Positions 1-3,693 of a stretch of DNA of 10,000 nucleotides are shown piece after piece. The first letter of the stretch is position 1, and every line of letters starts with the position of its first letter. The notes beneath the pieces were generated by a model. It did no database searches. It was not told the DNA's origin and saw only the letters and a program-made list of their open reading frames with translations. The position numbers and the translations under genes are program-made. Source of the stretch: Thiobacillus sp. (GTDB lineage Bacteria > Pseudomonadota > Gammaproteobacteria > Burkholderiales > Thiobacillaceae); the NCBI GenBank assembly GCA_020216925.1, contig JAIWOL010000071.1, positions 1 through 10,000 of the forward strand, written 5' to 3'.

Positions 1-86
1 CGGGTTTGGATTGGAATTGCTGGCGGTTTTGGATTGGAATGAGTGGCGGTTTTGGAGTGGAATGAGTGGCGGTTTTGGAGTGGAAT
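1..86. repeat. 23-bp tandem repeat at left edge
   Basis: A 23-bp unit is repeated head to tail: a partial copy at 1-17, then copies at 18-40, 41-63 and 64-86. The last two copies are identical. The copy at 18-40 differs from them at four positions, and 1-17 differs from the matching part of 18-40 at one position. The core is GGCGGTTTTGGAGTGGAAT. Because 23 is not a multiple of three, each copy shifts the reading frame. The array runs directly into the cytochrome-like reading frame and may extend beyond the window. It has no spacers, so it is not a CRISPR array. It could be a genuine variable-number repeat or an assembly artefact. Confidence 0.9.
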
Positions 87-430
87 ATGCACGCAAGCAG
101 CAGGCCTGTACCGAGTGCCATACCAGCGCGGTCACCAGCATGGCAAAGGCCGAAGACTGGTTCGCCGACAAGGATCTCGACTACACCGGCATGGGGCCCA
201 AGGAAACCTGCGAGTTCATCAAGACCACGCATCACGGCAAGACCGGCACCCCGGCCGCCATGCTGTCCCATCTGCTGACCGACCCGCGCATCCTCTGGGC
301 CATCAAGGGCGGCCTGCCCAACGCCGGCGCCCTGCCCATGGGCAAAAAAGCCGAACTGATTCCCGGCGACATCGACGAGTGGCGCACCCAGGTCGCAGCC
401 TGGATCAACGGCGGCATGAAGTGTGAATAG
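2..430 (+). CDS. c-type cytochrome-like protein, 5' end unclear
   Basis: The frame is open from the window edge and stops at 428-430. From the only early in-frame ATG (62) it would give 122 residues. A haem c attachment motif CTECH lies at residues 16-20 of that version, and a Met in LPMGKK near residue 93 is a candidate axial ligand. The C-terminal half (TDPRILWAIKGG, then IPGDIDEW and a final GGMKCE) looks like a small mono-haem periplasmic cytochrome, but I cannot name the family. Haem c attachment happens in the periplasm, so a signal peptide is required. None is visible: the codons before residue 8 come from the 23-bp repeat and encode a Trp-rich non-signal sequence. Either the true 5' end lies outside the window or the gene is disrupted. 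The end overlaps the rhodanese gene by 8 bp, suggesting an operon. Confidence 0.65.
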   Translation, partial: GFGLELLAVLDWNEWRFWSGMSGGFGVEYARKQQACTECHTSAVTSMAKAEDWFADKDLDYTGMGPKETCEFIKTTHHGKTGTPAAMLSHLLTDPRILWAIKGGLPNAGALPMGKKAELIPGDIDEWRTQVAAWINGGMKCE

Positions 431-1109
431 GCCCGTCTTGCACATGGGCCGGCGACTGGGCGCGCTTTGCCTGCTCGCCGTCTTGGCCCCCGGCGCGCCG
501 CGTGCCGAGGACGCGGCGGGCCGCGAGGTCCGCATCACCCACGAGCTGTCGAGCGTTACCGTGCTGCATCGCGGCAAGCCCGTGGTGATCGAGCGCAACC
601 CGGATACCGAAAACACCATCGAGCCGGATTTCGCCCTCACCTCGCGGCCCTGCCCGCCCTTCTGCGTTTTGCCGATGACTCTTGCACCGGGCGTGGAAAC
701 CCTGGGCGAACTCGAACTCATCGGCTATCTGCAACAGGTCGGCAAGAACAGCGGCGTACTGGTCATCGATTCGCGCGACGGCTCCTGGCCGCAACGTTCC
801 GGCGTCATTCCCGGTGCGGTGCTGCTGCCCTGGCAGAAACTGCACCCGGCGCACGCCAGTGCCGCCGAAATTGCCGACACCCTGCAATTCCAGTTTGGCG
901 CGGCACGGCAGGACGGCCTGTGGAATTTTGCCGGGGCCAAAACCCTGGTTTTTTACTGCAACGGCCCCTGGTGCGGCCAATCCCCCACCAACATCAGGCA
1001 GTTGCTGGCCTTGGGCTATCCCGCGCACAAGCTCAAGTGGTACCGCGGCGGCATCCAGGACTGGAAAGCCCTGGGACTGACAACTGTGCCATACGACAAC
1101 ACGCCTTAA
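423..1109 (+). CDS. exported rhodanese-like domain protein
   Basis: This 228-residue protein carries one rhodanese fold at roughly residues 95-220. The first rhodanese signature reads VLVIDSRDG...GVIPGAVLLPW (113-137), the active-site loop is YCNGPWCGQS (178-187), and the second signature is WYRGGIQDWKALG (206-218). Cys179 sits where rhodaneses carry the persulfide-forming cysteine; Cys184 lies in the same loop. A further pair, CPPFC (77-81), lies before the domain. The N-terminus is a signal peptide ending near PRA|ED (residue 28), so the protein is periplasmic. It probably handles sulfane sulfur or thiols; the substrate is not readable. The GTG start at 423 overlaps the cytochrome gene. ATG at 444 is an equally good start that also keeps a complete signal peptide, and neither has a strong ribosome-binding site. 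Confidence 0.85.
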   Translation: MNRPVLHMGRRLGALCLLAVLAPGAPRAEDAAGREVRITHELSSVTVLHRGKPVVIERNPDTENTIEPDFALTSRPCPPFCVLPMTLAPGVETLGELELIGYLQQVGKNSGVLVIDSRDGSWPQRSGVIPGAVLLPWQKLHPAHASAAEIADTLQFQFGAARQDGLWNFAGAKTLVFYCNGPWCGQSPTNIRQLLALGYPAHKLKWYRGGIQDWKALGLTTVPYDNTP

Positions 1110-1178: not shown

Positions 1179-1892
1179 ATGACCAAACTGCTGTCCACGC
1201 TCGTTTTCGCCCTGGGTGCGGGACTCGCCCTGCCTGCACTGGCCCAGACCCCGGCCTACCCCAACACCACCAATCCCTACCTCAAGAATGTTCCCGCCCC
1301 CGCGCCGAACCCCATGACCCTGCTGCCCAAGGGCAGCGGCGCGATGAAAGACGCCATTCCCTGGGCAATGTCGGCCACGCCGACCGCCGAACAGAAAAAA
1401 CAGCTGATGAAATCCATGATGCCGCTGATGGCGAACATGGGCCTGAACATCCGCGACGTCATGAACTACATGACAACCAAATACCAGGCCAAGGCAGGCG
1501 TATCCTTCGACGACGTGGTCGAATCCATGAAACTGCGCGCCAACCAGCTCAACCTGAAGCTGGTCGGCCATTCGCCCATGATCAAGGACATCCAGGCCGT
1601 GCTGGGCGACACCACCAGCCCGCGCATGGAAGTGTTCCACTTCTGCGACATCGCCGCCGGTCGCGAAATCATGAAGCTGGTTCCTGAAGCCATCGTCTAT
1701 CTGCCCTGCCGCATCGCGGTCATGGAAGACGACAAGAGAAACGTCTGGGTACTGACCCTGGACTGGGACATGGCGTGGCTCGACAGCATCAACGGCTCGA
1801 TGGGAATCACCCCGGAAATCGCCAAGATGGCAGTGGAAATCCGCGACAAGATGGACAACGTCATGCGCGCAGGCGCAAACGGCGACCTCTGA
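1179..1892 (+). CDS. secreted DUF302 domain protein
   Basis: The product has 237 residues and a signal peptide ending ALA|Q at residue 22. A Pro/Asn-rich stretch follows (about 23-50, including TTNPYL), then a Met-rich helical segment (about 56-100, with LMKSMMPLMANMG). A DUF302-type domain covers about 104-207. Its readable parts are SFDDVVESMK, MEVFHFCDIAAGREIM and IVYLPCRIAVMED, with Cys156 and Cys177 as the only cysteines. DUF302 proteins have no settled biochemical function, though they are often found near sulfur- and redox-related genes. The start is well supported by GGAGGA at 1165-1170, 8 bp before the ATG. The gene lies between the rhodanese gene and the Met-rich pair. Its own Met-rich segment and NPYL motif recall the second Met-rich protein, which may mean they share a compartment or ligand. 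Confidence 0.8.
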   Translation: MTKLLSTLVFALGAGLALPALAQTPAYPNTTNPYLKNVPAPAPNPMTLLPKGSGAMKDAIPWAMSATPTAEQKKQLMKSMMPLMANMGLNIRDVMNYMTTKYQAKAGVSFDDVVESMKLRANQLNLKLVGHSPMIKDIQAVLGDTTSPRMEVFHFCDIAAGREIMKLVPEAIVYLPCRIAVMEDDKRNVWVLTLDWDMAWLDSINGSMGITPEIAKMAVEIRDKMDNVMRAGANGDL

Positions 1893-2042: not shown

Positions 2043-2399
2043 ATGAACACACGCAAACTCGCACTCGCCGCCGCCCTGCTGGCCAGCCCCCTGGCGCACG
2101 CTCAATTCGGCATGGAGCAGATGATGAACCCCATGGCCATGATGGGTCCGATGATGGCGCCGATGGGCATGATGGCGCCGATGATGGGCGGCATGACCCC
2201 CATGATGGGTTCGATGATGGCGCCGATGAACATGATGGGCCCGATGATGCAGCCCATGAACCAGATGGCCGCTCCCATGGGCGCGATGATGGCACCCATG
2301 GCGCCCATGATGTTTCCCATGCCCCCCATGATGTTTCCCATGCCCCCCATGATGATGCCGCCTGCCGCGCCGGCCGCTGAACCCGCTCCGGCCAAATAA
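2043..2399 (+). CDS. exported Met-rich low-complexity protein 1
   Basis: The product has 118 residues. A signal peptide (1-20, ending AHA|QFG) is followed by a 98-residue mature chain in which I count 38 methionines. These are arranged as MM or M separated by Pro, Gly or Ala pairs, as in GPMMAPMGMMAPMMGG. There is no cysteine or histidine in the mature part. The tail is Ala/Pro-rich and ends in Lys. A 21-nt unit encoding PMMFPMP is perfectly duplicated at 2304-2324 and 2325-2345. CGGAG at 2030-2034 supports the ATG. No enzyme fold is recognisable. By analogy with the periplasmic Met-rich peptide MrpX of Azospira, it could be an oxidant sink; the spaced Met residues would also suit Cu(I) binding. 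A structural role is a third option. The export signal is clear, the function is not. Confidence 0.85.
   Translation: MNTRKLALAAALLASPLAHAQFGMEQMMNPMAMMGPMMAPMGMMAPMMGGMTPMMGSMMAPMNMMGPMMQPMNQMAAPMGAMMAPMAPMMFPMPPMMFPMPPMMMPPAAPAAEPAPAK
2304..2345 (+). repeat. perfect 21-bp duplication inside Met-rich gene 1
   Basis: Two identical adjacent 21-nt units (2304-2324 and 2325-2345) each encode PMMFPMP. Perfect nucleotide identity suggests a recent in-frame slippage or duplication event, a likely route by which the Met-rich region grows. Confidence 0.85.
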
Positions 2400-2412
2400 G
2401 CTTTCCCTGCCC

Positions 2413-2444
2413 TCGAGCCCGCCTGCCGCGGGCTCGATTTGTTT
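2413..2444 (+). terminator. intrinsic terminator between Met-rich genes
   Basis: A perfect 10-bp GC-rich stem (2413-2422 with 2428-2437) closes a 5-nt loop CTGCC and is followed by TTTGTTT. The stem is strong and the T-tract is broken by one G. It lies 13 bp after the stop of the first Met-rich gene, so it probably ends or attenuates that transcript before the second gene. Confidence 0.7.
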
Positions 2445-2486
2445 CAGCCCCGCCAGACAAACTGGCTCACCCCGGAGTTTCCAACC

Positions 2487-3116
2487 ATGAATGCCCGCAC
2501 CCTGACCCTCGCCCTGCTGCTCGCCGGTTCGACCGGTGCCCATGCCCAGTTTGGCGGCATGATGAACCCCATGACCATGATGAATCCCATGGGCATGATG
2601 AATCCCATGACCATGATGGCCCCCATGGGCATGATGGCCGCGCCGATGATGATGCCGATGGGGGCCGGCATGATGTCCAGCCAGATGTACAACCCGCAAT
2701 CCATGATGAACCCCTACCTCAATCCCATGGCGGCCGGCAATCCCTACATGAACCAAGGCGGCGGCATGATGAACCCCTTCGCCATGATGCAGCCCGCGCC
2801 GGCCTACGGCGGATACGCCGCCCCGGCTGCGCCGGCCATGCCGTTCTTCCCCGCAGCCCCGGCTCCGGCACAACAAATGGCACCCATGCCCTATTTCCCG
2901 GCCATGCCCGCAGCCGCCCCGGCTCACGGCTATGCCGCGCCCGCGCCCGCCTACCCCATGATGATGCCGGCCGCCCCGACTGCCGCACCGCAGGCTGCCG
3001 CACCGCAGGCTGCCGCGCCGACCGCCAATCCTTTCGATCCTTCGGTCTGGATGCAGATGATGGGCGGCATGATGGCAGTTCAGCCCGCAACGCCTGCCGC
3101 CCCCGAAACCAAGTAA
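2487..3116 (+). CDS. exported Met-rich low-complexity protein 2
   Basis: The product has 209 residues and looks like a paralogue of the preceding protein. The signal peptide (1-20) ends in the same AHA|QFG junction; 14 of the first 23 residues are identical, and both chains end in an Ala/Pro-rich tail with a final Lys. I count 41 Met in the 189-residue mature chain, densest in the first 60 residues (NPMTMMNPMGMM pattern). A segment with NPYLNP and GNPYMNQGG follows, then Pro/Ala/Tyr-rich sequence and a C-terminal patch WMQMMGGMM. Mature cysteines are absent. CGGAG at 2473-2477 lies 9 bp before the ATG, as in gene 1. Like its neighbour it is a candidate for oxidant buffering, Cu(I) binding or a structural coat. 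The NPY-type motifs and tyrosines leave a structural role open, for example on sulfur granules. No function is established. Confidence 0.85.
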   Translation: MNARTLTLALLLAGSTGAHAQFGGMMNPMTMMNPMGMMNPMTMMAPMGMMAAPMMMPMGAGMMSSQMYNPQSMMNPYLNPMAAGNPYMNQGGGMMNPFAMMQPAPAYGGYAAPAAPAMPFFPAAPAPAQQMAPMPYFPAMPAAAPAHGYAAPAPAYPMMMPAAPTAAPQAAAPQAAAPTANPFDPSVWMQMMGGMMAVQPATPAAPETK

Positions 3117-3162: not shown

Positions 3163-3693
3163 ATGCCCCGCTTCCGGCTGTTTGCCGTGCTCATTGCGCT
3201 GGCGGCCCTCGCCGCCGGCGTGTGGTTTGGGCGTGGACATTACGCGCCTGCGGCAAGCGATGCTGCCGCACTCGCGGCGCTGCACCAGGCCAGCTACCCT
3301 GACCCCCAGGGCCGGTCACAGGCGCTGGCGCAGTGGGCAGGCAGGCTGCGGGTGGTGAACTTCTGGGCCAGCTGGTGCGCGCCCTGCAGGGAAGAAATGC
3401 CGGATTTCGACGCGCTGGCCCGTCGCTATCGGCACAAAGGCGTCGAATTCATCGGCATTGCCGTCGATACAGAAGCCAACGTGCAGGCTTTTCTCCAAAA
3501 GCAACCCGTCAGTTACCCCATTCTCATCGGCGGCGGAAACGCGCACCTGCTGGCACGCCAGCTTGGCAATGCCACCGGGGCCTTGCCGTACACGCTGGTT
3601 CTCGACCGGGAGGGCAGGGTTGTGATTCGCCATCTGGGCCGCCTGCCCCGTGCCACACTCGACGCTGTCCTGCGCGAAAACCTGGCGCATTGA
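3163..3693 (+). CDS. membrane-anchored TlpA/ResA-family thioredoxin
   Basis: The 176-residue protein has an uncleaved-looking hydrophobic anchor (about 6-23) and a thioredoxin-like domain from about 60. The redox centre is WCAPC (71-75) in VVNFWASWCAPCREEMP. The cis-proline is Pro142 in GALPYTLVLD, preceded by the FIGIAVD strand typical of TlpA/ResA. Such proteins reduce disulfides in periplasmic clients such as apocytochromes or copper-site proteins. The actual client here is unknown; the neighbouring rhodanese, DUF302 protein and cytochrome contain cysteines, whereas the two Met-rich proteins do not. The gene starts 46 bp after the second Met-rich gene. In Betaproteobacteria a gene of this type often precedes aroQ-accB-accC, so its link to the left block may be positional only. 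Confidence 0.88.
   Translation: MPRFRLFAVLIALAALAAGVWFGRGHYAPAASDAAALAALHQASYPDPQGRSQALAQWAGRLRVVNFWASWCAPCREEMPDFDALARRYRHKGVEFIGIAVDTEANVQAFLQKQPVSYPILIGGGNAHLLARQLGNATGALPYTLVLDREGRVVIRHLGRLPRATLDAVLRENLAH

Follow-up and report, generated by a model that had tools for sequence, protein, structure and literature searches.

Two methionine-rich genes, which we call Met1 and Met2, end what appears from gene order to be a sulfur-oxidation operon, both in this Thiobacillus strain and in its sister genome G049. Together with a third protein, Met3, they make up what their sequences mark as an unnamed set of repeat proteins. By analogy with sulfur globule proteins, Met1 to Met3 may be a methionine scaffold, punctuated by proline, that holds zero-valent sulfur; we favor this reading tentatively and give it somewhat less than an even chance. 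The window, meaning the whole 10-kb stretch of DNA analyzed, is contig C172 of a 2.04-Mb draft genome that is 85% complete. Its features are collected in Table 1, and gene names given without a model, there and below, were assigned by eye or by similarity.

Table 1. Features of the window, with positions counted from its first letter.
Feature	Position	Strand	Details
23-bp tandem repeat, apparent outer end of a mobile element (IS-like) in the diheme cytochrome gene	1..86	.	TRF, 3.7 copies
Diheme c-type cytochrome gene, 3' part	89..430	+	90.6% identical to the uninterrupted L047 gene (175 aa)
Rhodanese-domain protein, signal-like N-terminus	444..1109	+	PF00581, E 3.9e-8; start from codon-usage caller, longer ORF begins at 423
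DUF302 protein, signal-like N-terminus, 9% Met	1179..1892	+	PF03625, E 2.7e-9
Met1	2043..2399	+	118 aa; 38 Met in 98 mature residues
Terminator-like hairpin between Met1 and Met2	2413..2437	+	10 pairs, T-rich tail; pattern scan only
Met2	2487..3116	+	209 aa; 41 Met in 189 mature residues
Met2 motifs: MNPM repeats, NPYLNPMAAGNPY, PFDPxxWMQMM, Ala/Pro tail	2487..3116	+	
TlpA/ResA-like thioredoxin	3163..3693	+	PF08534, E 2e-23; TlpA/ResA models below cut-off

The tandem Met-rich reading frames described in a sequence-only reading are present at the coordinates it gave, and its other details of them held up. Both proteins carry the junction AHA|QFG after a signal-like N-terminus (judged by eye) and an Ala/Pro tail with a terminal Lys, and a CGGAG leader ends 7 bases 5' of the ATG in Met1 and 9 bases 5' of it in Met2. 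The Met counts of the mature chains, taken from Q21, are as it stated, and neither chain contains Cys. Mature Met1 has no His and mature Met2 has one, with one Lys/Arg in each. Among 70 proteins called on seven stretches of the same genome, for which the median Met fraction is 2.5%, Met1 and Met2 rank first and third and Met3 ranks second; the binomial probability of such a Met content is about 1e-34 for Met1 and 4e-26 for Met2. Met spacing is non-random, with lags of 3, 4, 7 and 10 in Met1, which contains 22 MxxM motifs, and of 6 in Met2, where prolines are mostly spaced by 3, 6 or 4.

Met1 and Met2 are under purifying selection. Compared with the sister genome, Met1 (118 codons) has a dN/dS of 0.08 and Met2 (207 codons) one of 0.11, similar to the values for DUF302 (0.07) and AroQ (0.10). 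In an alignment of 30 sequences (A1), A20 is invariant, Q21 is kept in at least 90%, and the junction is of the same type as in the window, judged by eye. The Met2 family conserves two short motifs, NPYLNP and PFDPxxWMQMM, set in loose sequence, and NPYL recurs in the N-terminus of DUF302. The length of Met1 varies, from 118 aa here to 188 aa in G049 (69 mature Met) and 226 aa in G051 (70 mature Met). The pattern scan that found the hairpin between the two genes returned 2 overlapping sites against 0.5 expected, and such a hairpin with its T-rich tail could set the ratio of Met1 to Met2.

As the earlier reading had said, the repeat pattern corresponds to no named family: Met1 and Met2 have no Pfam or NCBIfam match, and neither does Met3, with Pfam models matching 0 of its 13 aligned members. 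Searches of PDB sequences with Met2 (best E 0.44) and with a Met3 profile (designed proteins, best E 0.014) gave nothing convincing, nor did Foldseek with a weak Met3 model (best E 3.4), and we dropped a known structural family on these grounds. Homology between Met2 and Met3 scored an hhalign probability of 87% over 48 columns, which, in low-complexity sequence, we did not accept as proof. An AF2 model of Met2 has a mean pLDDT of 54.5, a low confidence that is consistent with disorder. For one Met3 sequence, AF2 gave 13 short helices (pLDDT 59.9, pTM 0.37), too weak a model for a fold claim. The open-licence literature that we searched yielded no paper on Met1, Met2 or Met3.

The genes of the window follow the order cytochrome (3' part), rhodanese, DUF302, Met1, Met2 and TlpA, then aroQ-accB-accC-prmA. 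The corresponding locus of the sister genome, L047, reads fccA-fccB-Met3-soxY-soxZ-cytochrome-rhodanese-DUF302-Met1-Met2-tlpA, with ccsA and a sigma-54 activator upstream of fccA. In our genome the upstream half of this operon is found on a second contig, C126 (locus L120), where flavocytochrome c sulfide dehydrogenase (FCSD), SoxY and SoxZ were recognized by models. A repeat similar to the one that opens the window also stands at the end of C126, and the flanks of C172 and C126 map to adjoining positions of the uninterrupted L047 cytochrome gene, with 8 bases in common. Because the repeat ends lie at both contig ends and match in their places in the cytochrome gene, the operon appears to be interrupted in this strain. 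The element's end (window 1-88 and the low end of L120) we take to resemble an IS21-type end with a short duplicated flank. The split falls upstream of the Met1-Met2 pair and counts against a sulfur scaffold.

Relatives of Met2 number at least 29 proteins by sequence search and at least 35 by profile; those of Met1 number at least 3. The Met2 family is present in 9 of 56 genomes of the genus, 13 of 117 Thiobacillaceae genomes and at least 1 of 399 order-level genomes, where the match among those listed is our own genome. The first Met-rich scan covered loci of about 2.5-3.7 kb; the family member in L071 was found by search, having been missed by the codon-usage caller, and the genes of two AT-rich loci were called after that caller had been retrained.

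The constant neighbor of the Met-rich genes is the DUF302 gene, which lies directly upstream in 12 of the 14 Met1/Met2-family loci that we read. The other two are at a contig edge (G060:C75) or hold a second Met1-like copy (G107:C378). Using a cut-off of 70% identity, with the next best match at 57%, we found a DUF302 orthologue in 8 of the 9 genus genomes with Met2 and in 0 of the 47 without it (Fisher 6e-9, ignoring kinship); in the ninth, G060, the contig begins inside the Met gene. SoxYZ genes are near only 4 of 12 DUF302-Met loci across all genera (G000, G049, G129 and G107). The locus was read in eight genomes of the genus, and in six of them (G004, G010, G014, G046, G051 and G066) the 13-18 kb surrounding the DUF302-Met genes held no match to SoxY, SoxZ, FccB or rhodanese. 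In these six, a cytochrome c4-like gene flanks the DUF302-Met genes on one side and aroQ on the other; resB-ccsA was found in just G004 and G046, and tlpA in just G046 and G051. G077 and G126, on contigs that end nearby, showed no SoxYZ or FccB match. The DUF302-Met genes are accompanied more often by a cytochrome c4-like gene than by Sox or FCSD genes, which counts against a sulfur scaffold, as does the presence of FCSD in 38 of the 47 genus genomes that lack the Met2 family.

Met3 is more widespread, occurring in 52 of 117 Thiobacillaceae genomes and 9 of 12 genera, with up to 10 matches per genome; within the genus, the genomes that carry it are the same nine that carry Met2. Its 13 aligned members place N/D/S-Pro every 12 or 13 residues, with a consensus close to MNPxxYxNWMxAP. 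Ten of them keep this beat after the first gap, and the remaining three have a motif too many or too few. Twelve of the 150 Met3 matches listed lie within 3 kb of an FCSD gene on the same strand, in two arrangements, against an expectation of 0.74 that assumes 3.2-Mb genomes and uses the positions of listed Met3 and FCSD matches; for the other 138, no listed FCSD match is that close. Genomes with Met3 average 3.5 FCSD matches and the 65 others 1.2, kinship being ignored in this comparison. Four loci, L135, L136, L138 and L139 (two in G123, one each in G089 and G103), share the order rhodanese-DUF302-Met3-fccA-fccB. Met3 contains about 9-12% Met there, so an extreme Met content is not general. 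In L135, L136 and L138 (G123 and G089) the cluster continues into an NapA-type nitrate reductase, confirmed by model in L135, and a diheme NapB-like gene, and this gene order suggests a sulfide-to-nitrate unit.

Matches to SoxY and SoxZ stand beside Met-rich genes in L047, L071, L074, L135, L137 (SoxY only), L159 and L120. No match to SoxY, SoxZ, FccB or DUF302 was found in the other four Met3 stretches of our own genome (L121-L124) or in the gamma loci (L125-L128 and L160-L163), and the further Met3 loci L129-L134 showed no Sox or FCSD match and a DUF302 match in L131. Two Met3 paralogues end in a C-terminal OmpA domain (L122:6358-7617 and L134:7079-8587).

Profile searches placed Met3-like proteins in at least 8 of 369 class-level genomes, seven of them outside the order. 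In one of these seven, G517, five Met-rich proteins cluster with SoxY, SoxZ, DUF302, a PAS/sigma-54 activator and a sulfur transporter, as recognized by Pfam. One of the five (L159:10595-11590) has a signal, one c-type heme motif (CAACH), MNPM repeats and 88 Met in 331 aa. Another neighbor in this cluster is an LTXXQ/Metal_resist protein with a Met-rich N-terminus, which counts against a sulfur scaffold. The loci read in the other six genomes (G547, G687, G826, G590, G596 and G713) gave no match to SoxY, SoxZ, FccB or DUF302, so the association is repeated in 1 of 7 distant genomes. In G713, three Met-rich genes are followed by a gene for an NrfD-family membrane protein. Taken across all loci, the association of Met-rich genes with FCSD, SoxYZ and rhodanese is recurrent, not universal.

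Little is understood of how bacteria keep elemental sulfur, which is insoluble, within reach outside the cytoplasm, and sulfur envelope proteins are best known from Beggiatoa and the purple sulfur bacteria. The product of FCSD is polysulfide or sulfur; SoxYZ serves as the carrier of sulfane sulfur. We infer that Met1 to Met3 are exported and, from gene context, that they bind sulfur in a scaffold role. Met1 and Met2 would be exported, probably disordered, proline-punctuated Met-repeat proteins that form, together with Met3, a flexible matrix outside the cytoplasm. This matrix might bind and retain zero-valent sulfur as polysulfane chains, S8 or nascent globules, with FCSD as the source and SoxYZ as the carrier. 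Thioether side chains, spaced by the N/D/S-Pro breaks, could make weak contacts with sulfur without a reactive Cys. The GRAVY values of Met1 and Met2, only 0.33 and 0.07, may count against such a role. If the scaffold exists, the family would supply candidate sulfur-binding proteins in a large group of chemolithotrophs, would give the still unexplained DUF302 protein a partner, and would let one ask directly whether sulfur can be held by methionine side chains.

We arrived at the scaffold reading through traits in common with sulfur globule envelope proteins, which are described as exported repeat proteins that have Pro at regular intervals and lack a conserved domain (PMC10386293, PMC7356093). 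A transposon in a Beggiatoa sulfur envelope protein gene is reported to have gone with the loss of sulfur storage. Like SgpA-D of Allochromatium and the Beggiatoa protein, Met1 to Met3 are repetitive, putatively exported and present in several copies per genome in sulfur-oxidizing hosts, and they too carry evenly recurring Pro along a repetitive chain that has no known domain. The likeness drawn here is one of traits; unlike SgpA-D, Met1 to Met3 are Met-rich, and some of their genes lie inside FCSD/SoxYZ/DUF302 clusters. For Met3, a further picture comes from apolipoproteins and perilipins, in which short Pro-punctuated helices coat hydrophobic particles; the comparison applies to Met3 only and is an analogy.

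A bolder version, in which thioether arrays act as a solid-phase solvent for elemental sulfur and define a new class of protein, strikes us as unlikely. The 12/13-residue Pro-punctuated unit of Met3 and the 6-7-residue Met repeats of Met1 and Met2 would together form the extracytoplasmic matrix, with some members anchored via OmpA domains or tied to c-type heme. It would store zero-valent sulfur and pass sulfur between FCSD, SoxYZ, rhodanese and DUF302, and the heme-bearing members would perhaps pass electrons. Such a thioether-based matrix, if real, would be a new kind of protein. The presence of SoxYZ near only a third of the DUF302-Met loci lowered the chances that we assign both to this version and to the sulfur scaffold.

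The repeats could instead organize enzymes, gathering DUF302, cytochrome c4, FCSD and SoxYZ into a complex or condensate with no sulfur contact. We doubt this, though several observations argue for it: the constancy of DUF302 and the frequency of the cytochrome c4-like gene, even where Sox and FCSD genes are missing; NPYLNP and PFDPxxWMQMM, conserved within loose sequence, and the NPYL in DUF302; and the heme-motif protein of G517. It leaves unexplained why Met specifically should reach about 40% and why OmpA-bearing paralogues are encoded far from DUF302, cytochrome, FCSD and SoxYZ genes. The sequence-only reading had proposed an oxidant buffer, a copper buffer or a structural coat. Of the three, a structural coat is, by analogy, the one that best suits the sulfur context, whereas the oxidant option is weakened and the copper option disfavored; the msr or copper genes it had looked to near homologues were not recognized in the window, L120 or L047.

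MrpX of Azospira and BcrX of Brucella, both hypochlorite scavengers, are small, exported and Met-rich, and Met1 and Met2 are likewise small and Met-rich, with export putative. A sacrificial Met sink of this MrpX/BcrX-like kind, recycled by methionine sulfoxide reductase, would use the high Met content, and the adjoining TlpA thioredoxin could feed a reductase; our genome also encodes MsrP, on another contig (C183). We nevertheless judge it quite improbable. The MrpX/BcrX kind is described as MXKDX-repeat proteins with MsrPQ (PMC8315932), whereas Met1 to Met3 have MNP repeats, the MXKDX type is absent from Met1 and Met2 with their single Lys/Arg, and neither MsrPQ nor an ECF sigma/anti-sigma pair was recognized in the window, L120 or L047, MsrP being the only msr family searched by model. 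Within the genus, MsrP occurs in 7 of 9 genomes with Met2 and 33 of 47 others, which is no difference; on this account the oxidant sink is kept as a rival. Across the family, MsrP exceeds the cut-off in 20 of the 52 genomes that carry Met3 versus 47 of the 65 that do not (Fisher 3e-4, ignoring kinship), which weakens the oxidant sink; the difference comes from other genera (13 of 43 versus 14 of 18). A periplasmic buffer in which spaced Met hold Cu(I) or Ag(I) is, to us, a similarly poor prospect. Known proteins use Met motifs to bind Cu(I), and the MxxM motifs of Met1 and the LTXXQ/Metal_resist protein of the G517 cluster point that way. Against it, Met1 and Met2 have almost no His, no Cys and no Pfam or NCBIfam match to a known copper-protein domain. 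CopB, the copper family searched, passes the cut-off in 1 of the 52 Met3-bearing genomes versus 25 of the 65 others (Fisher 7e-7), and in 0 of 9 versus 19 of 47 in the genus, kinship being ignored in both comparisons.

DUF302 genes in sox clusters have been published with no role assigned (PMC5037610, PMC5248467). Thermithiobacillus and Acidithiobacillus have a DUF302 gene in a sox cluster, as here; our loci differ in adding Met-rich proteins and, in part, fccAB and rhodanese, and the account of that cluster in PMC5037610 mentions no Met-rich gene. A DUF302 paralogue or orthologue is found at E 1e-50 in 45 of 56 genus genomes. Paralogues of about 50% identity adjoin an 840-aa sensor-like protein in L025, L027, L028 and L030, and the one in L025 also adjoins an FCSD-like flavoprotein and a cytochrome.
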